A stretch of 9,091 bases of DNA, taken from JBFLYE01 sp040756715 [NCBI: bacterium] (GTDB lineage Bacteria; UBA9089; UBA9088). The notes under the pieces were generated by a model, which saw only the letters and a list, made by a program, of their open reading frames with translations, did not search any database and was not told the origin of the DNA. The stretch is from contig JBFLYE010000191.1 in assembly GCA_040756715.1 (NCBI GenBank), forward strand, positions 1 to 9,091, given 5' to 3'. A program made the translations under genes and the position numbers. The first letter of the stretch is position 1, and each line of letters begins with the position of its first letter. Positions 1-9,027 of this stretch are shown one piece after another.

Positions 1-167
1 ACTAAGTAATGGAAGATACTATAAATGAGAAGGATAAAAGGTATTCCTTATAATCTTGGGAGTCCTTCTGAAGGGAAAAAAGGAGAAACTTAAGGTTAAG
101 GTTGCGAAATATCAGAAGTTTTCCTTAAGATTATCTAAACACATACCACATATGTTTTCCCTTTCCT
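1..167. other. Non-coding left end with part of a dispersed repeat
   Basis: I see no supported gene here. The only short open frames are a 14-codon one beginning at the ATG at 9 and a frame ending in TGA at 26-28, which might be the tail of a gene lying further left. A tandem pair of TTAAGG lies at 90-101. Positions 116-146 hold one arm of a 31-bp inverted repeat shared with the right end. No convincing terminator hairpin follows the leftward gene that stops at 168. Confidence 0.5.
116..146 (-). repeat. 31-bp dispersed repeat, left copy
   Basis: Read on the minus strand this is GTATG-T-GTTTAG followed by ATAATCTTAAGGAAAACTT. It matches 8997-9027 on the plus strand at 30 of 31 positions, the one difference being T versus G at the sixth base. 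It begins 21 nt after the stop codon of the GAF-domain gene. It is not coding. Two copies in the same position relative to their upstream gene suggest a 3'-untranslated element or a small family of intergenic repeats; that role is inference. Confidence 0.75.
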
Positions 168-1226
168 TTATCCATTTGAAATAACCACCCTATTTTTATG
201 TTTAAATGCACTTGCCAAAGCAGAGTTTGCACTCCTTAAAAACTCAATATGCGATGTTTCTGATGAGGGATAGCAGGCAATACCAATAATGGGAAAATAC
301 CCTGTGTTTGCCTCTATTTCCTTTTTTATCCTCTCTACCAAAATCATAATCCTATTCCTTCCTGTCCTTAAGGCTAAAATGTAAAACCTTCCATCGTTAT
401 ACGAGACTATATCATCAGCCCTTGTCTGTGAATTTATAATGAGCCCTATTTTTTGAACCTCAGAAAGAGAAGAAGGAAGCTCAAGCTTTATAATTATTAA
501 GGATAAAGGCCTTAAAATCCTCATACTCCTTGCAAATTCTTCCTTAAGCTTATTTTCAAAAAATGAATAGGCAAAGAGGGCTGTTTTATTATCGGTTATG
601 CTTAATCTACTTATCTCCTCATAAAACCTTTCATTCTTAAGATGTAATGAAACGATATTAGAAATAAGCTCAAGAAAGACCTTCTCTTTATCAGAAAACC
701 TCCTTTTTGCATAAGAGCCACAAAGGATAAGCCCCTGTGGAGAATCGGGAAGACCAAGGCAAACAGAAATGGCAGAGAGAAGCTTAATCTCCTTAAGAAA
801 GCTATAATTTGGCTCATCCTTCATATATACATCATTGATAATTATTGTCTTTCCCTCCTTTACAGCCCCTCCCACAAAACCATCTCCCATCTTAAATTGT
901 GGTATAGCCACAGAAGGTTTTCCAGAGCTTGCTATAAGCTCTAACCTTCCTATTTCGGGATTTAAAAGGAATATAAGGTTGATGTCTGTCTTTAAAAAGC
1001 CCATAATCTCTTGAATAATATAATCAAGTCTCTTTTTAAAAGGAAGGTCTTCATCCATTTTTAATGAGATGCTACAAAGCTCTTGTAGCTTCTTTGATTC
1101 CATATTCAATTCATACATCGTTGATTGAAGACGTGGTTGCAAAATCTTTGCCTGCTGCCTTTCATCCTCAAGGGCTTCTTCACAAAGCATTGTTTCAGAA
1201 ACAAGGACAGAGCCCATTCCAGCCAT
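168..1226 (-). CDS. GAF plus degenerate GGDEF signalling protein (C-terminal part of an interrupted membrane sensor)
   Basis: This is a 352-residue cytoplasmic sensor fragment. In order it has a hydrophobic start (residues 1-10, the end of a membrane helix), a charged coiled-coil-like linker (about 15-55), a GAF-like domain (about 60-200) and a C-terminal GGDEF-like domain (about 205-350). The GGDEF signature is replaced by N277-D-G-R-F281 after RADDIVSY, so diguanylate cyclase activity is unlikely; the domain may only bind or signal. The ATG at 1226 has no Shine-Dalgarno sequence. The frame is open upstream for 18 more codons, encoding a likely transmembrane helix, up to a TAA at 1281-1283. 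That TAA is in frame with the membrane gene ending there. I therefore read this as the C-terminal two thirds of one receptor cut by a nonsense codon. The GAF ligand is unknown. The domain assignment is fairly sure; independent translation from 1226 is not. Confidence 0.7.
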   Translation of the reverse strand: MAGMGSVLVSETMLCEEALEDERQQAKILQPRLQSTMYELNMESKKLQELCSISLKMDEDLPFKKRLDYIIQEIMGFLKTDINLIFLLNPEIGRLELIASSGKPSVAIPQFKMGDGFVGGAVKEGKTIIINDVYMKDEPNYSFLKEIKLLSAISVCLGLPDSPQGLILCGSYAKRRFSDKEKVFLELISNIVSLHLKNERFYEEISRLSITDNKTALFAYSFFENKLKEEFARSMRILRPLSLIIIKLELPSSLSEVQKIGLIINSQTRADDIVSYNDGRFYILALRTGRNRIMILVERIKKEIEANTGYFPIIGIACYPSSETSHIEFLRSANSALASAFKHKNRVVISNG

Positions 1227-1280
1227 AACAATAAATAGAGGAATTCTTATTAAAAGATAGGGGGAAAGGCTTACATCTTT

Positions 1281-1283
1281 TTA
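1281..1283 (-). other. In-frame TAA stop that splits a sensor gene
   Basis: The stop ending the membrane fragment is in the same frame as the downstream GAF gene (1667 to 168 is exactly 500 codons). Eighteen sense codons (KDVSLSPYLLIRIPLFIV) connect it to the ATG at 1226 and supply the missing sixth membrane helix. A single substitution in a sense codon would explain it. TAA also ends metG, ricT, ssb, tyrA and the cobA-hemD gene here, so global reassignment of TAA is excluded. Confidence 0.8.
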
Positions 1284-1667
1284 AACAAAAAAGATAAGAA
1301 AATATATCAGACAGACCCCAAAGCTTAAGATAATAGCACCCTTTGTTCTGTAATAGCAGGCAGCAAATATAAGGATGAGAAAATAAAATAAATAAAATGG
1401 GCTTTTTATTCCACCCGTTGAGGCAATAAGGGATGAGACAAAAAATATATCAAGTGTGCTTTCAAGATAGCAAATCCTAAAAGAGGTTATCTTTTTGTAA
1501 AGAAAATTGGCAATAAGGTTGTAAAATGTAATAATTAAAAGGGGAATAAATATCTCGGGTTTTGTCGCATTCTCTTTTGCAATAAGGACAACAGTTAATA
1601 TAGAAAGGGCAATCATTAACCATCTAACCTTATTAGCAATCGGAAAAACCTTTTTACTTAAATCCAT
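1281..1667 (-). CDS. Polytopic membrane sensor domain (N-terminal part of an interrupted signalling protein)
   Basis: This 128-residue protein is almost entirely membrane segments: about residues 15-31, 38-57, 63-81, 87-104 and 109-127. The loop motif STGGIKSPFYLFYF (about 82-95) resembles the six-helix sensor domains found at the N-terminus of many histidine kinases and GGDEF proteins. It ends abruptly after FLIFFV. The same frame continues past the TAA into a sixth helix and then the GAF/GGDEF gene, so the natural protein was probably about 499 residues. The ATG at 1665-1667 is preceded by a near-perfect promoter (TTGACA, 17 bp, TATTAT) that would put the transcript start on the A of the ATG. 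It lies 43 nt after metG. No signal peptide beyond the first helix is seen. The stimulus is unknown. Confidence 0.65.
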   Translation of the reverse strand: MDLSKKVFPIANKVRWLMIALSILTVVLIAKENATKPEIFIPLLIITFYNLIANFLYKKITSFRICYLESTLDIFFVSSLIASTGGIKSPFYLFYFLILIFAACYYRTKGAIILSFGVCLIYFLIFFV

Positions 1668-1673
1668 ATTAAA

Positions 1674-1702
1674 ATAATAACATATTTAGAGGCAGATGTC
1701 AA
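1674..1702 (-). promoter_or_regulatory. Sigma70-type promoter of the membrane sensor gene, leaderless spacing
   Basis: On the minus strand TTGACA (1702-1697) and TATTAT (1679-1674) are separated by 17 bp. The expected start, 7 nt past the last -10 base, is 1667, the A of the ATG. No Shine-Dalgarno sequence is present. Six of six and five of six consensus bases with ideal spacing make this a strong candidate; transcription itself is inferred. Confidence 0.65.
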
Positions 1703-1710
1703 AAAAGGTA

Positions 1711-3168
1711 TTAAGATTTTCTTATAAATAGATGTGAAGGAGGGGAAATTTTTATTCCCTGTGCAAGCCCTCCCCATTCTGTGTTTAAAAGGGAAAACCC
1801 AAGTTTTTCTAAAATCTTCAGACCTGCATCTGGCATTACTGGATAGATAAATAAAGCAATTAGTCTTATGCTTTCAAGTAACCTATAAAGGCAATCACAA
1901 AGCCTTCTTTTAGAAGGAATTGCCCAGGGTTTTTCTTTGTCAATGTATCTATTACACTCATTTATAAAAGCCCAAACGACCTCAAGGTATGTATGAAATT
2001 TTAATTCATCAAAATAGGAATCCATATTTTTAATGATATTAAAAGCAGATTCCCATAAAGCCCCTCCATCACTCTTTCCTGGAATAATCCCTCCTAAATA
2101 TTTATTTACCATAGCAAGTGTCCTTGAGACAAGATTTCCAAGGTCATTTACTAAGTCAGAATTAAGCCTTTGGATAAGGGCTTGATATGAAAAATCTCCA
2201 TCCAAGCCAAAAGGAAGGTCTCTTAAGAGAAAATACCTTAAACAATCAGCTCCTACATCATCGGCTAATTCAGATGGAGAAACAACATTTCCTAAAGACT
2301 TTGACATCTTCTCTCCCTTTATCCTCCACCACCCATGTCCAAAAACCATTTTTGGTAAGGAAAGACCACAAGAAAAAAGCATAGAAGGCCAGATTATTGT
2401 ATGAAACCTTAAGATATCCTTTCCCACCAGATGTAGGTCAGGTGGCCAATATTTTTCAAATTTCTCTTTATTGTCAGGAAAACCCGCACCGGTTAAATAA
2501 TTTGTTAAAGCTTCAAACCAGACATATATAACATCCTCAGAAGAAATTGGGATTCCCCATTTAAGACCTCTCCTTGTAATACTTAAATCCATTAGCCCAT
2601 CCTTTACTATATTTTCCATTTCAGTAGACCGAAAGGAAGGCTTAATAAAATTTGAATTCTCCTTAAAATATGAAAGAAGCCTCTCTTTATATTTTGAAAG
2701 AGAAAAATAGTAGGTTGGAGATTCTAAAAATGTTGTCTTTCTTCCGCAAGATGGGCAAATTTTTTCTTTTAAACAATAGCTTTCGCAGGGTATGCAATAA
2801 TTTCCGCTGTATTGCCCCCGATAGATATCGCCATTTTTATAGATAAGCTCAAATACATATTTTGCTGTTTTTTTATGCCCTCTGCTCGTTGTCCTTATAA
2901 AATCATCGTATGAAATATTAAGCTTCTTCCATAGAGATTTAAAATTCTCTGATTGAAAGTCTGCAAGGGCTTGAGGAGAAATACCCTTTTCCTTTGCAGA
3001 TTGCTCTATTTTTTGTCCATGCTCATCTGTGCCTGTGATAAACAAAACATCGAATCCTTTAAGCCTCTTATACCTTGCAATGCAATCAGCGGCAATCGTT
3101 GTATATGCATGGCCAATATGGGGAATATCATTTACATAATAAAGGGGGGTGGTAATGTAATATTTCAT
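1711..3168 (-). CDS. metG: Methionyl-tRNA synthetase
   Basis: This class I aminoacyl-tRNA synthetase charges tRNA-Met with methionine in the cytoplasm, for both initiation and elongation. The 485-residue protein opens with KYYITTPLYYVNDIPHIGHA, with the HIGH signature at residues 17-20. A zinc knuckle follows with cysteines C125, C128, C138 and C141 (an extra C132 lies between the pairs). The KMSKS loop is at 287-291 within KGEKMSKSLGN, and a helical anticodon-binding domain fills about 340-470. It is complete but lacks the C-terminal tRNA-binding domain found in the longer E. coli and Bacillus enzymes. It follows ricT by 29 nt and has no Shine-Dalgarno sequence; a weak promoter-like pair upstream would start the RNA at the ATG. 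The holB-ricT-metG order resembles the Bacillus holB-yaaT-metS region. Confidence 0.97.
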   Translation of the reverse strand: MKYYITTPLYYVNDIPHIGHAYTTIAADCIARYKRLKGFDVLFITGTDEHGQKIEQSAKEKGISPQALADFQSENFKSLWKKLNISYDDFIRTTSRGHKKTAKYVFELIYKNGDIYRGQYSGNYCIPCESYCLKEKICPSCGRKTTFLESPTYYFSLSKYKERLLSYFKENSNFIKPSFRSTEMENIVKDGLMDLSITRRGLKWGIPISSEDVIYVWFEALTNYLTGAGFPDNKEKFEKYWPPDLHLVGKDILRFHTIIWPSMLFSCGLSLPKMVFGHGWWRIKGEKMSKSLGNVVSPSELADDVGADCLRYFLLRDLPFGLDGDFSYQALIQRLNSDLVNDLGNLVSRTLAMVNKYLGGIIPGKSDGGALWESAFNIIKNMDSYFDELKFHTYLEVVWAFINECNRYIDKEKPWAIPSKRRLCDCLYRLLESIRLIALFIYPVMPDAGLKILEKLGFSLLNTEWGGLAQGIKISPPSHLFIRKS

Positions 3169-3173
3169 TTAGC

Positions 3174-3201
3174 ATTTTAAATGATAAATTTGCAATGTTA
3201 A
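3174..3201 (-). promoter_or_regulatory. Possible weak internal promoter for metG
   Basis: On the minus strand TTAACA (3201-3196) and TAAAAT (3179-3174) are 16 bp apart. The expected start is 3167, within one base of the metG ATG (3168). The spacer is very AT-rich, so this can arise by chance. I list it because it repeats the geometry seen at rpsF and the membrane sensor and because metG has no ribosome binding site. Confidence 0.3.
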
Positions 3202-3980
3202 ATTTTAACTTCTACTATTCTTTCATCCTCAAGCTTTACTTTTATGGAGGATCTGATTGGACAGACCTCTTCAATAATACCAATTCCCTCCTCTGTTTTA
3301 TAAGAAGAGCCCTCTTTTGGTGTTTTTTTTCTAAATTCCTTATAAAACTCATATTCAAAAGCAAGGCAGCACATAAACCTTCCACATACACCTATTATCT
3401 TAGAAAAAGACATAGATAGATTTTGTTCCTTTATCATCTTTATATTAACACCTTTAATCTCCTTTAAAAATTTAGAACAACAGGGTTCCCTTCCACACCA
3501 GGAAAAACCCCCAAACAGCTTTACCTCCTCCTTTATCCCTATCTGATAAAGCTCAATTTTAGAACCCAAAGAGCTCGAAAACTCTTTAACAAGGTTTCTA
3601 AAATCAACCCTCTCGTTTGCACTAAAATAGAATGTGTACTTTTTTTCATCCAAAGAGAGGTGAACATCGATAAACTTCATATCAAGGTTATGGGCTTCTA
3701 CCTTTTCTATAAAAAGCTTTTTAGAAAGCTCCTCTTTTTCTTTATTTAGCTTCTGTTTTTCTAGATCTTCTTCGGATGCCTTCTTGATAATCCTTGGAAT
3801 ATGCTCTTTTATTTTCTCATCATCTAAAACCTTTGGCCCTTCAACACTTAAGCCTATATCACAATATCCTTCCATCTCAACAAGATACATTTTGCCCATT
3901 TCAATTGAGATCTCTCCACAATCGCAATAGTTTATCCTAGGATCCTTTAAAAACCTTATTCCCACTACCTCTCTAATCAT
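3198..3980 (-). CDS. ricT: PSP1-domain protein, RicT/YaaT family
   Basis: The 260-residue protein has the hallmark core of the YaaT/RicT family: FIDVHLSLDEKKYTFYFSAN with ERVDF (about 103-127), then IELYQIGIKEEVKLFGG (about 142-158). Two cysteine clusters follow, C162-x4-C167-C168 and C199-x4-C204-C205 (CGRFMCC), with KMIKEQNLSMSFSKI between them. In Bacillus subtilis RicT acts with RicA and RicF in an iron-sulfur-containing complex affecting mRNA maturation, sporulation and competence. No RicA or RicF gene is visible here, so the role in this organism is open. A charged helical insert lies at about 53-95. The gene overlaps the end of holB by 8 nt (ATGATTAG), indicating coupled translation. 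The family call is secure; the exact function is inferred. Confidence 0.9.
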   Translation of the reverse strand: MIREVVGIRFLKDPRINYCDCGEISIEMGKMYLVEMEGYCDIGLSVEGPKVLDDEKIKEHIPRIIKKASEEDLEKQKLNKEKEELSKKLFIEKVEAHNLDMKFIDVHLSLDEKKYTFYFSANERVDFRNLVKEFSSSLGSKIELYQIGIKEEVKLFGGFSWCGREPCCSKFLKEIKGVNIKMIKEQNLSMSFSKIIGVCGRFMCCLAFEYEFYKEFRKKTPKEGSSYKTEEGIGIIEEVCPIRSSIKVKLEDERIVEVKI

Positions 3981-4803
3981 TTGTTATCCCAAATACCATC
4001 TTTTCTAAAGCAAGCCTTCTATGGACATTTGCTTTTAGAGCTTCTTTTGCCTCTAAAACTTTATCAATCATAAAATAAAGGCCATTTTTCTTAAAGATAA
4101 AAAGGAGAAGCTCTAATGTATGTGGAAACCTTTCATACATCTTAACAAGCTCCTCTATGAGAAGAAAAGGAGACTTTGTTTTAAGAGAAGAGACCCATAA
4201 TGAAAGGGCTTTTTTTTCTTCGTCTATGTTTATCTTGCTATAATTTAATATTTTTTCCATACTTCCTCCCGACATTTCAACTAACATCTCATCTTCTATA
4301 CCAAGGGATTTAAAGCTATTTAAAGAAAGGGGCTTAAACCTTATTTTAAAACAGCGGGATCTAATTGTGGGAAGGAGGCTATTTATTGAGCTTGTAATTA
4401 GAATAAACAATTGGGTTGCCTCCTCCAATGTTTTAAGAAGACAAGATGATGCAGAAGGGGTAAGAAGATGGGCATTATCAATTATATAGACCCTCTTCTT
4501 ATAGGTTGGCTTAAGATTTGCCTCTTTTATTATCTCCCTTATTGTATCAATCTTTATATAGCCCTGCTCATCCTTTATTTCCCTTATGTCGGGATGGTTT
4601 TTAAGGCTATTACAAGAGCTACAAAAAACACAACCATTATCATCGCAATTTATAGCCCCGGCAAAAGCAATTGCTGCCATTCTCTTTCCAATTCCGCTCT
4701 TTCCATAAAAGATTAAAGGAGGGATATCCCTCCTTCTTAAAAGGTTTTTTAAAGATGATATTGCTTCTCTCTGACCTATGATTTTATCCAAAAGCATAAA
4801 CAT
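3973..4803 (-). CDS. holB: DNA polymerase III delta' subunit (clamp loader)
   Basis: This AAA+ clamp-loader subunit helps open and load the sliding clamp at primed DNA. The sequence starts with LLDKIIGQREAISSL. It has a P-loop-like GKSGIGKR (34-41) with Arg where Ser/Thr normally follows the lysine. A four-cysteine zinc module is at C53, C58, C61 and C64. A Walker-B-like VYIIDNAH lies at 105-112, followed by LLKTLEE and the SRC arginine-finger motif (149-151). At 276 residues it is shorter than the E. coli protein (334), mainly in the C-terminal collar domain. Delta' rather than gamma/tau is supported by length, by DNAH in place of DEAH, and by the ricT neighbour. ATGs at 4803 and 4797 are both possible; MLLDKIIGQ from 4797 is the more family-like start. 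Neither has a Shine-Dalgarno sequence. Confidence 0.9.
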   Translation of the reverse strand: MFMLLDKIIGQREAISSLKNLLRRRDIPPLIFYGKSGIGKRMAAIAFAGAINCDDNGCVFCSSCNSLKNHPDIREIKDEQGYIKIDTIREIIKEANLKPTYKKRVYIIDNAHLLTPSASSCLLKTLEEATQLFILITSSINSLLPTIRSRCFKIRFKPLSLNSFKSLGIEDEMLVEMSGGSMEKILNYSKINIDEEKKALSLWVSSLKTKSPFLLIEELVKMYERFPHTLELLLFIFKKNGLYFMIDKVLEAKEALKANVHRRLALEKMVFGITND

Positions 4804-4805
4804 AT

Positions 4806-4835
4806 AGGATATAAATATTGGGCTTAATCTGTCAA
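4806..4835 (-). promoter_or_regulatory. Leftward promoter of the holB-ricT-metG unit
   Basis: On the minus strand a perfect TTGACA (4835-4830) is followed after 18 bp by TATCCT (4811-4806, four of six consensus bases). TATATC with a 16-bp spacer is an alternative. The predicted start falls near 4799-4801, between the two candidate holB ATGs, and would favour a nearly leaderless start at 4797. The -10 box is weak, so confidence is moderate. Confidence 0.5.
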
Positions 4836-4843
4836 TCTTGACT
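4830..4843. promoter_or_regulatory. Dyad formed by back-to-back divergent -35 boxes
   Basis: TGTCAA-TC-TTGACT reads as TTGACA on the minus strand and TTGACT on the plus strand with only 2 bp between. The two -35 elements of the divergent promoters therefore face outward from one 14-bp imperfect palindrome. Two polymerases could hardly bind at once, so rpsF and holB transcription may compete. A repressor or activator site at the dyad is also possible but not shown. Confidence 0.6.
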
Positions 4844-4867
4844 TAAAAAGGATTTATTTTGTATAAT
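4838..4867 (+). promoter_or_regulatory. Strong sigma70-type promoter of rpsF, leaderless spacing
   Basis: TTGACT (4838-4843, five of six) and a perfect TATAAT (4862-4867) are 18 bp apart. Seven nucleotides past the -10 box lies 4874, the A of the rpsF ATG. No Shine-Dalgarno sequence precedes this ATG. The element also argues against the in-frame TTG at 4859, which would lie inside the promoter. Confidence 0.8.
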
Positions 4868-4873
4868 ATTTTT

Positions 4874-5212
4874 ATGGAAAATAAATTTTATGACCTAATG
4901 GTTATTTTTGATGAAAAAGAAGCAAAAAGGGAAAAAATTACATCTGAAATTACTGGAATTATCAATGAAAACAATGGTTTTATTGAGCATATTGATGAAT
5001 GGGGTATAAAAACCCTTAGCTATCCAATCAAGAAACACTTAGAAGGATTTTATTTGCTTATAAGATTTTCTGTAAAAAAAGAGGCAATTTCTTTAATCTC
5101 AGAGGTCTTAAGGGTTTCAGAACATGTTTTGAGGTTTCTTATTACAAAAAGAAAAAATCCCCTTCCAAAGGAAGGGGAAAAAGAGAATGAAGAGGAGGTA
5201 AAGGAAGAATGA
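4874..5212 (+). CDS. rpsF: 30S ribosomal protein S6
   Basis: S6 binds the central domain of 16S rRNA, normally as a partner of S18. The 112-residue protein shows the family pattern: FYDLMVIFDE near the start, then an alpha helix, DEWGIKTLSYPIKKHLEGFYLLIRF (typical of the S6 beta sheet) and LRVSEHVLRFLITK. A charged, glutamate-rich tail (EGEKENEEEVKEE) follows, as in several bacterial S6 proteins. I place the start at ATG 4874. A frame-extending TTG at 4859 has an AAAGGA-like sequence ahead of it but sits within the promoter. It overlaps ssb by 4 nt (ATGA). The usual partners rpsR and rplI are absent after ssb. A perfect hairpin lies near the 3' end of the gene. Confidence 0.93.
   Translation: MENKFYDLMVIFDEKEAKREKITSEITGIINENNGFIEHIDEWGIKTLSYPIKKHLEGFYLLIRFSVKKEAISLISEVLRVSEHVLRFLITKRKNPLPKEGEKENEEEVKEE
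5159..5177 (-). terminator. Perfect 8-bp hairpin inside rpsF, terminator-like on the minus strand
   Basis: CCCCTTCC-AAA-GGAAGGGG is a perfect inverted repeat with a 3-nt loop. On the minus strand it is followed by ATTTTTT, the layout of an intrinsic terminator. On the plus strand it is followed by a run of A, so it should not stop rpsF mRNA that way. It lies within codons for NPLPKEG. It may stop antisense transcripts running toward the divergent promoters, or modulate ssb expression. It could also be a coding coincidence. Confidence 0.4.
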
Positions 5213-5601
5213 GAGGATACTCAAGGGCAATAATTATGGGGAATTTGACAAGGGATCCTGAGCTAAAATACATTCCATCTGGAACAGCTGTTACAAGCTT
5301 TACCGTAGCTGTCAACAGAAAGTACACCCTTCAGGGTGAGACAAAGGATGAGACAAGCTTTATTCCCGTTGTTGTTTGGGGAAAACAGGCAGAGAATTGC
5401 AATCAATACCTTAAAAAGGGATCTGCTGTTTTTGTTGATGGAAGGCTTCGTCAACGCTCATGGGAAACATCGGATGGTCAAAAGAAATCCGTGGTTGAAA
5501 TAGTAGGATTGACGGTTCAATTTCTTTCAGGAAGGCCACAAGAGGAAGAAATTATTGAAGAAGAACCACCCCTTCCTCCCGAAGAAGACCTTCCTTTTTA
5601 A
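5209..5601 (+). CDS. ssb: Single-stranded DNA-binding protein
   Basis: This 130-residue SSB coats single-stranded DNA during replication, repair and recombination and normally acts as a tetramer. An OB fold spans about residues 1-108, with the family signatures RAIIMGNLTRDPELKYIPSG, TSFTVAVNR, FIPVVVWGKQAENCNQYLKKG and VFVDGRLRQRSWE. The short C-terminal tail is acidic and proline-rich and ends in EEDLPF, the usual docking tip for partner proteins (DDIPF in E. coli). The ATG overlaps the rpsF stop and has AAGGA at 5201-5205 plus GGAGG at 5194-5198, so translation is probably both coupled and Shine-Dalgarno driven. rpsF-ssb adjacency is conserved in bacteria; here rpsR does not follow. Confidence 0.97.
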   Translation: MRGYSRAIIMGNLTRDPELKYIPSGTAVTSFTVAVNRKYTLQGETKDETSFIPVVVWGKQAENCNQYLKKGSAVFVDGRLRQRSWETSDGQKKSVVEIVGLTVQFLSGRPQEEEIIEEEPPLPPEEDLPF

Positions 5602-5653
5602 GAGGAATTGCAAATTTTAAATTGATCATGAGGATAAAAATTTAAATTATAAA
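5602..5653. other. AT-rich spacer between ssb and the tRNA
   Basis: This 52-bp gap has AAATTTTAAATT at 5612-5623 and AAAAATTTAAATT at 5637-5649, which can pair imperfectly, but no GC-rich terminator stem. A TTGATC at 5622-5627 and a TATAAA abutting the tRNA are poorly spaced as a promoter. The tRNA may therefore be cut from the rpsF transcript. Confidence 0.35.
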
Positions 5654-5743
5654 GGAGAGGTGCCAGAGAGGTCGAATGGGGCTGCCTGCTAAGCAGTTAT
5701 ACAGGCAAAACTTGTATCCTGGGTTCAAATCCCAGCCTCTCCG
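5654..5743 (+). tRNA. tRNA-Ser (anticodon GCU)
   Basis: A full 90-nt class II tRNA can be folded by eye. Acceptor stem GGAGAGG (5654-5660) pairs with CCTCTCC (5736-5742), with discriminator G at 5743 as usual for serine. The anticodon arm is GCTGC-CTGCTAA-GCAGT (5681-5697) with anticodon GCT at 5688-5690, reading AGC/AGU. A long variable arm pairs ATAC with GTAT. The T arm is CTGGG-TTCAAAT-CCCAG (5719-5735). The 3' CCA is not encoded, so it must be added after processing. The tyrA frame begins only a few bases later, suggesting that tRNA 3' cleavage also defines the 5' end of the tyrA message. Confidence 0.96.
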
Positions 5744-5756
5744 GGGAAGGTGAAAA

Positions 5757-8996: not shown

Positions 8997-9027
8997 GTAT
9001 GGGTTTAGATAATCTTAAGGAAAACTT
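8997..9027 (+). repeat. 31-bp dispersed repeat, right copy
   Basis: GTATG-G-GTTTAG followed by ATAATCTTAAGGAAAACTT matches the minus strand of 116-146 at 30 of 31 bases. It begins 21 nt after the cobA-hemD stop, the same distance as the left copy from its gene. The sequence between stop and repeat is not shared, so the conservation is confined to the element. Confidence 0.75.

Follow-up and report, generated by a model that had tools for sequence, protein, structure and literature searches.

A single in-frame TAA interrupts an otherwise conserved membrane sensor gene in the assembly of an uncultured UBA9089 bacterium

Two open reading frames that form one sensor gene

The window analysed here, a whole contig (C191) of 9,091 bases, appears to carry one inherited membrane sensor gene of ~ 499 aa that is interrupted, in this assembly, by one derived TAA at codon 129. 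We assign this reading, which is built on sequence comparisons, a probability of about 0.9. Two open reading frames on the minus strand, at 1281–1667 (128 aa) and 168–1226 (352 aa), shared a single frame. Read from 1667 to 168, the minus strand gave 500 codons, interrupted by a TAA at 1281–1283 and closed by a terminal stop; both the list of open reading frames and our reading of the frame bear out this arrangement, as it was given in the preliminary description. The pair is confirmed, as sequence, to be a single gene, and the overall interpretation of that description, a membrane sensor split by one stop, is supported. A 269-kb sample of the genome contained 43 pairs of consecutive open reading frames in the same frame, each member being 80 codons or longer and chance frames included. 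The pattern of open reading frames alone is therefore not rare, and it is the homology with a genome of the same genus that raises the case above chance. We caution that the two apparent genes at this place are one. The features of the region are as follows.

1281–1667, minus strand: N-terminal piece, 128 aa, with membrane helices 1–5 (open reading frame, hydropathy windows and a weak 6TM_PilS match)
1281–1283, minus strand: internal TAA, derived, in the loop between helices 5 and 6 (sense codon in 12 other aligned rows)
168–1226, minus strand: C-terminal piece, 352 aa, from ATG 1226, with part of helix 6, the linker, the GAF domain and the GGDEF remnant (open reading frame, Pfam)
1200–1256, minus strand: predicted membrane helix 6, residues 138–156 (hydropathy peak; behind the stop, spanning the restart ATG 1226)
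642–1031, minus strand: GAF domain (Pfam GAF PF01590, 23.3 bits against a cut-off of 22.4)
171–602, minus strand: degenerate GGDEF domain (Pfam GGDEF, 20.6 bits against a cut-off of 23.8; the outer edge at 602 is estimated)
1674–1702, minus strand: promoter-like site, with −35 TTGACA at 1702–1697, a 17-nt spacer and −10 TATTAT at 1679–1674 (11 of 12 consensus matches)

Orthologues without the stop

We compared the genome under study (G000) with relatives from the same genus (G001), the same family (G002) and the same order (G003 and G004). In total, 61 genomes were searched, G000 included; matches to the C-terminal piece, most of them due to general GAF/GGDEF similarity, came from at least 47, and matches to the N-terminal piece from 19. 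Among the matches listed, the orthologue was one open frame in all four nearest genomes, with 499 aa in G001, 492 aa in G002, and 498 aa in both G003 and G004 (only open reading frames of at least 100 aa were compared in the relatives' contigs). The identities over 499 positions were 89.6%, 64.7%, 50.5% and 49.7%, respectively. Uninterrupted relatives of about 500 residues, which the preliminary description had proposed to look for, thus exist. The arrangement it had named as speaking against a single gene, with relatives encoding the sensor as two separate genes, was found in none of the four. Five genomes of the phylum at a greater distance (G012, G013, G014, G017 and G018, among the matches listed) likewise had both pieces within one frame of 540–552 aa, at 30–38% identity.

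The G001 orthologue aligned straight across the TAA over its 499 residues, and no frameshift separated the two genes. No gap was present at or beside the TAA in the alignments with G001, G003 and G004. The column of the TAA held a sense codon in all 12 other rows (four orthologues and eight paralogues), with varied residues. Since the stop is absent from the four nearest orthologues, it is derived, and we observed it in this assembly only. The gene thus resembles a pseudogene in one respect, a frame interrupted relative to intact orthologues.

A contig search with the 352-aa piece alone confirmed no relative among 43 stretches. With the alignment of the four orthologues as the query, three loci (L089–L091) were confirmed among 216 stretches; their match positions are those of G002–G004, and they were not counted again. 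The order of neighbouring genes was considered as a guide to orthology and rejected, as the stretches compared differed in the genes that flank the sensor; in consequence, orthology rests on identity and collinearity. The literature found under the name of the putative phylum (e.g. PMC11484514, available in part) contained no report on this sensor gene.

Predicted domains and role of the sensor

Hydropathy indicated six membrane helices, taken from overlapping windows above the threshold and judged by eye. The TAA directly follows helix 5, in a variable loop between helices 5 and 6. The ATG at 1226 is codon 148 and lies within the hydropathy peak of helix 6. The preliminary description had assigned the whole sixth helix to the 18 codons that follow the TAA; these codons do encode part of it, about its first half, preceded by a short loop. 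The match to 6TM_PilS (PF25323) was weak, its 17.2 bits falling below the cut-off of 27. Weak scores for this family were also obtained for G003 and for two paralogues, p1 and p2, and none was listed for G001 and G002.

With its PF01590 score above the family cut-off, the protein belongs to the GAF-domain sensors, whereas its GAF_2 score of 26.2 bits was under the cut-off of 28.6. We scanned G001, G002, G003, p1 and p2 in the same manner, and all except the G001 orthologue exceeded a GAF cut-off; that orthologue scored 26.7 against 28.6 for GAF_2 and 19.5 against 22.4 for GAF.

The GG[DE]EF motif is the A-site signature of diguanylate cyclases, and the metal/GTP-binding stretch is a further motif of these enzymes. 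In the alignment with p2, the A-site equivalent of the sensor was NDGRF, at 384–398, and the metal/GTP-binding stretch was shortened; the sensor therefore lacks the pair of motifs that would mark it as a diguanylate cyclase. The earlier label “GGDEF” holds insofar as a GGDEF-type C-terminus is present, but this is only a degenerate remnant. A profile search of the PDB returned 15 matches, all confined to either the GAF or the GGDEF part. The ancestral sensor would have comprised six helices, a linker, a GAF domain and the degenerate GGDEF remnant. Because the GGDEF part is degenerate, we propose that in its normal role the protein would sense a signal via its membrane and GAF parts and relay it by protein contact, and not by c-di-GMP synthesis.

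The paralogues p1 and p2 are similar to the sensor in having a membrane part, a GAF domain and a GGDEF-type end. They lie in tandem on contig C41 of G000 (L042:5120–6613 and L042:3526–5157) and, unlike the sensor, both are uninterrupted. The GGDEF domain of p2 is near-canonical, with 143 bits, GEEEF at the signature in both G000 and G001, and most of the substrate-binding stretch kept. That of p1 is degenerate and barely above the cut-off (25.4 versus 23.8). The tandem pair (L042:3526–6613) recurs in G001 (L043) and G002 (L044), and the stretches of G003 and G004 (L045 and L046) contain a p1-like copy only.

Selection on both sides of the stop

Between G000 and G001, the sensor gene showed a dN of 0.055 and a dS of 0.407. 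The dN/dS ratio was 0.142 before the stop and 0.125 from ATG 1226 on. In the 18 codons between the stop and ATG 1226 it was 0.31, a value made of only three changes of each kind. For comparison, the intact paralogue pairs of the two genomes gave 0.34 and 0.22. These values show that both halves of the sensor were under similar purifying selection until recently. With dN/dS ≈ 0.13 in both halves and no second lesion, neither relaxed selection nor further damage was observed; in consequence, a pseudogene would fit only as a very recent event.

When the changes were polarised with G002, nonsynonymous and synonymous changes came to 28 and 44 on the G000 branch and to 20 and 42 on the G001 branch (Fisher p = 0.47). 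Under a simple Poisson model, the neutral share of the G000 branch was 5% as a point value, with an upper bound of 15%. Amino-acid changes, again with G002 as the outgroup, numbered 23 in G000 and 14 in G001 (p = 0.19), and behind the stop 18 and 8 (p = 0.076). This lean towards G000 could mean some relaxation. For the whole gene, the lean was reversed with the other outgroups (10 versus 18 with G003 and 11 versus 16 with G004), and these outgroups lend no support to the lean behind the stop. The selection pattern implies that the stop is very recent, or tolerated via residual expression, or not real.

Release factors in the genus

A single class-I release factor was found in G000 (contig C30, L105:8862–9935, plus strand) and in G001 (contig C20, L101), and both are of the RF2 type; for G000 we take the SPF motif to identify it as such. 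RF2 reads TAA and TGA. Searches with PF00472, PF03462 and the RF1 protein of G002 yielded no RF1 in either assembly (96 and 97% complete), whereas G002, G003 and G004 contained both RF1 and RF2. Nevertheless, TAG terminated 41 of 212 sampled open reading frames in G000 and 8 of 42 in G001. All six TAG-ended G000 frames with homologues ended at a conserved place, one of them in comparison with a relative that is only 40% identical. The absence of RF1 from the two assemblies may be accidental; if not, TAG must be dealt with in some other way. Among the papers listed on the topic, the titles and opening lines of the abstracts described no natural absence of RF1, and neither did the available passages of PMC4989110. 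This anomaly is more curious than the stop in the sensor. If the missing RF1 is not an assembly gap, the handling of TAG by an RF2-only cell becomes testable.

Origin of the internal stop

We favour a very recent nonsense mutation or a strain polymorphism as the source of the TAA, and consider it the more probable explanation. Translation would normally stop at the TAA, so that a five-helix fragment without function would take the place of the full-length sensor. As biology, the interruption is most likely ordinary. As reported by Belinky et al. in 2021 (PMC7918605, in the portion of the article available), internal stops occur widely among bacterial genes with dN/dS < 1 and for the most part are short-lived; the authors proposed readthrough. 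The sensor is like their cases in having a single internal stop in a conserved gene, a dN/dS well below 1 and a probably short-lived interruption. It differs from their filtered set, in which the stop was present in at least two species, as the sensor stop occurs in one genome only. The sensor thus joins the bacterial genes, constrained until recently, in which an internal stop has been seen, and taken alone it matters little.

A possible, though less likely, explanation is that the gene of the organism is intact and that the TAA arose in assembly or sequencing, or entered the consensus from a minor strain. Such an error would agree with two halves that look fully constrained and bear no second lesion, and the assembly, of 1,552,737 bases and 95.98% complete, is in 218 contigs. 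In the part of their article available, Cooley and Wright (2024; PMC11017572) documented assembly mistakes as a source of false internal stops and showed many purported pseudogenes to be assembly errors. The sensor is similar to these spurious pseudogenes in that its internal stop sits in an otherwise intact-looking gene. Unlike in their cases, the sampled part of the assembly was not enriched in internal stops. Among 29 non-redundant homologous stretches (8,705 residues, from the 269-kb sample), the TAA of the sensor was the only internal stop, with stops counted only inside local alignments and matches below 35% identity dropped. Since the other 28 stretches were clean, the assembly is not generally poor. 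Across the whole G000 genome, no internal stop was present in 16 of 16 ABC_tran matches or 6 of 6 GGDEF matches.

The explanations in which the stop is used, tolerated or read as sense (readthrough, restart or a code change) are improbable even when taken together. Functional readthrough, with the TAA as a leaky attenuator that allows some full-length sensor to be produced, seems very unlikely. It would agree with the low dN/dS behind the stop and with the frequent readthrough that Belinky et al. proposed for such genes; however, a low dN/dS is equally expected from a very recent stop, and all four orthologues have a sense codon at the site. With only an RF2-type factor found in the genus, the TAA may be served by one factor only. 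Nevertheless, TAA was the commonest stop in the sample, terminating 96 of 212 open reading frames (the longest non-overlapping frames of at least 120 aa, a few of which may be chance frames). None of the 37 tRNAs found in this incomplete assembly, of which all anticodons were read, decodes a stop codon. Neither mark of programmed readthrough, a stop conserved across species or a dedicated decoder, was observed. If readthrough were true, the sensor would provide a natural stop-codon attenuator in an uncultured lineage. A more elaborate version, to which we give still less credence, is that the genus has no RF1, a modified RF2-type factor terminates at all three stops, and the leaky TAA is a tolerated attenuator behind which full-length sensor is made. 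Reassignment of TAA across the genome would explain the open frame, and little else; the counts of stops and tRNAs render it negligible, in agreement with the preliminary description, which had judged a global code change unlikely. Moreover, 16 of 18 TAA-ended frames with a homologue finished at conserved C-termini, within 15 aa of the end of the homologue (frames of at least 80 aa, with matches below 35% identity dropped). The two exceptions were the N-terminal piece of the sensor and one frame whose relative extends 306 aa further.

A split protein, in which the five-helix piece would cooperate with a separate GAF/GGDEF-remnant protein started anew at ATG 1226, is slightly less probable than readthrough. 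The 352-aa open reading frame downstream of the TAA is compatible with it, and there is a precedent in Shigella, where, according to the part of Ojha et al. (2024; PMC11327459) available, diguanylate cyclase genes with nonsense mutations still yield c-di-GMP. Like these genes, the sensor has a premature stop ahead of its GGDEF-type C-terminus and an in-frame ATG nearby. In contrast to them, its GGDEF signature is lost, so that no catalytic activity is expected of the remnant alone, and its host is an uncultured bacterium. A restart at 1226 would also cut helix 6, which makes a functional restart there unlikely, and the unsplit state of the four nearest relatives argues in the same direction. 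No Shine-Dalgarno-like 5-mer precedes ATG 1226, which is weak evidence against a restart, because such a motif was present upstream of only 21 of 129 ATG-started open reading frames of at least 200 aa in the G000 sample, and ATG 1667 lacks one as well. We considered the missing motif as strong proof against a restart and rejected it on account of this low frequency. Of the four options listed in the preliminary description, a recent nonsense mutation and an assembly error hold up, readthrough is weak, and the split protein restarted at 1226 fares worst.

Promoter and genomic setting

The promoter-like site ahead of the sensor was the best of eight in the window region 1–2000; shuffled sequences averaged 7.1 sites. 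Its −10 box ends 6 nt ahead of ATG 1667, which suggests that the sensor mRNA is probably leaderless. We also observed a TANNNT box shortly ahead of the ATG in 43 of the same 129 open reading frames, a raw count that may point to leaderless mRNAs being numerous in G000. A search of the window with Rfam at gathering scores returned only a tRNA.

In G001, too, the promoter-like site precedes the orthologue; the two genomes match in DNA across 162–1702, with 88.8% identity over 1,542 nt. The adjacent block, 1717–5756, starts with a gene that we take, from its sequence, to be metG, and matches another G001 contig (L126) at 83.8% over 4,079 nt. On L126, the 238 nt beyond the putative metG showed no match to the sensor. 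Given its own promoter-like site and the separate matches in G001, the sensor and its promoter behave as a unit of their own. Despite the high identity, the sensor and its promoter-like site lie in different neighbourhoods in G000 and G001, meaning that a rearrangement within the genus affected either the sensor or the DNA around it.

We must also note a dispersed repeat with the core TTTAGATAATCTTAAGGAAAACTT (up to three mismatches), located in the window at 116–146 (minus strand) and 8997–9027 (plus strand). The possibility that it is a structured RNA element was rejected, as two copies folded no better than shuffled sequences (z = −0.88 and 0.41). No copy was found in the stretches of G001–G004, except for a diverged one at L126:697–727. 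The 269-kb sample of G000 contained 18 copies, 15 of which were aligned, with copies near both ends of C191 and near several other contig ends. One copy includes the TAG stop of the RF2 gene.
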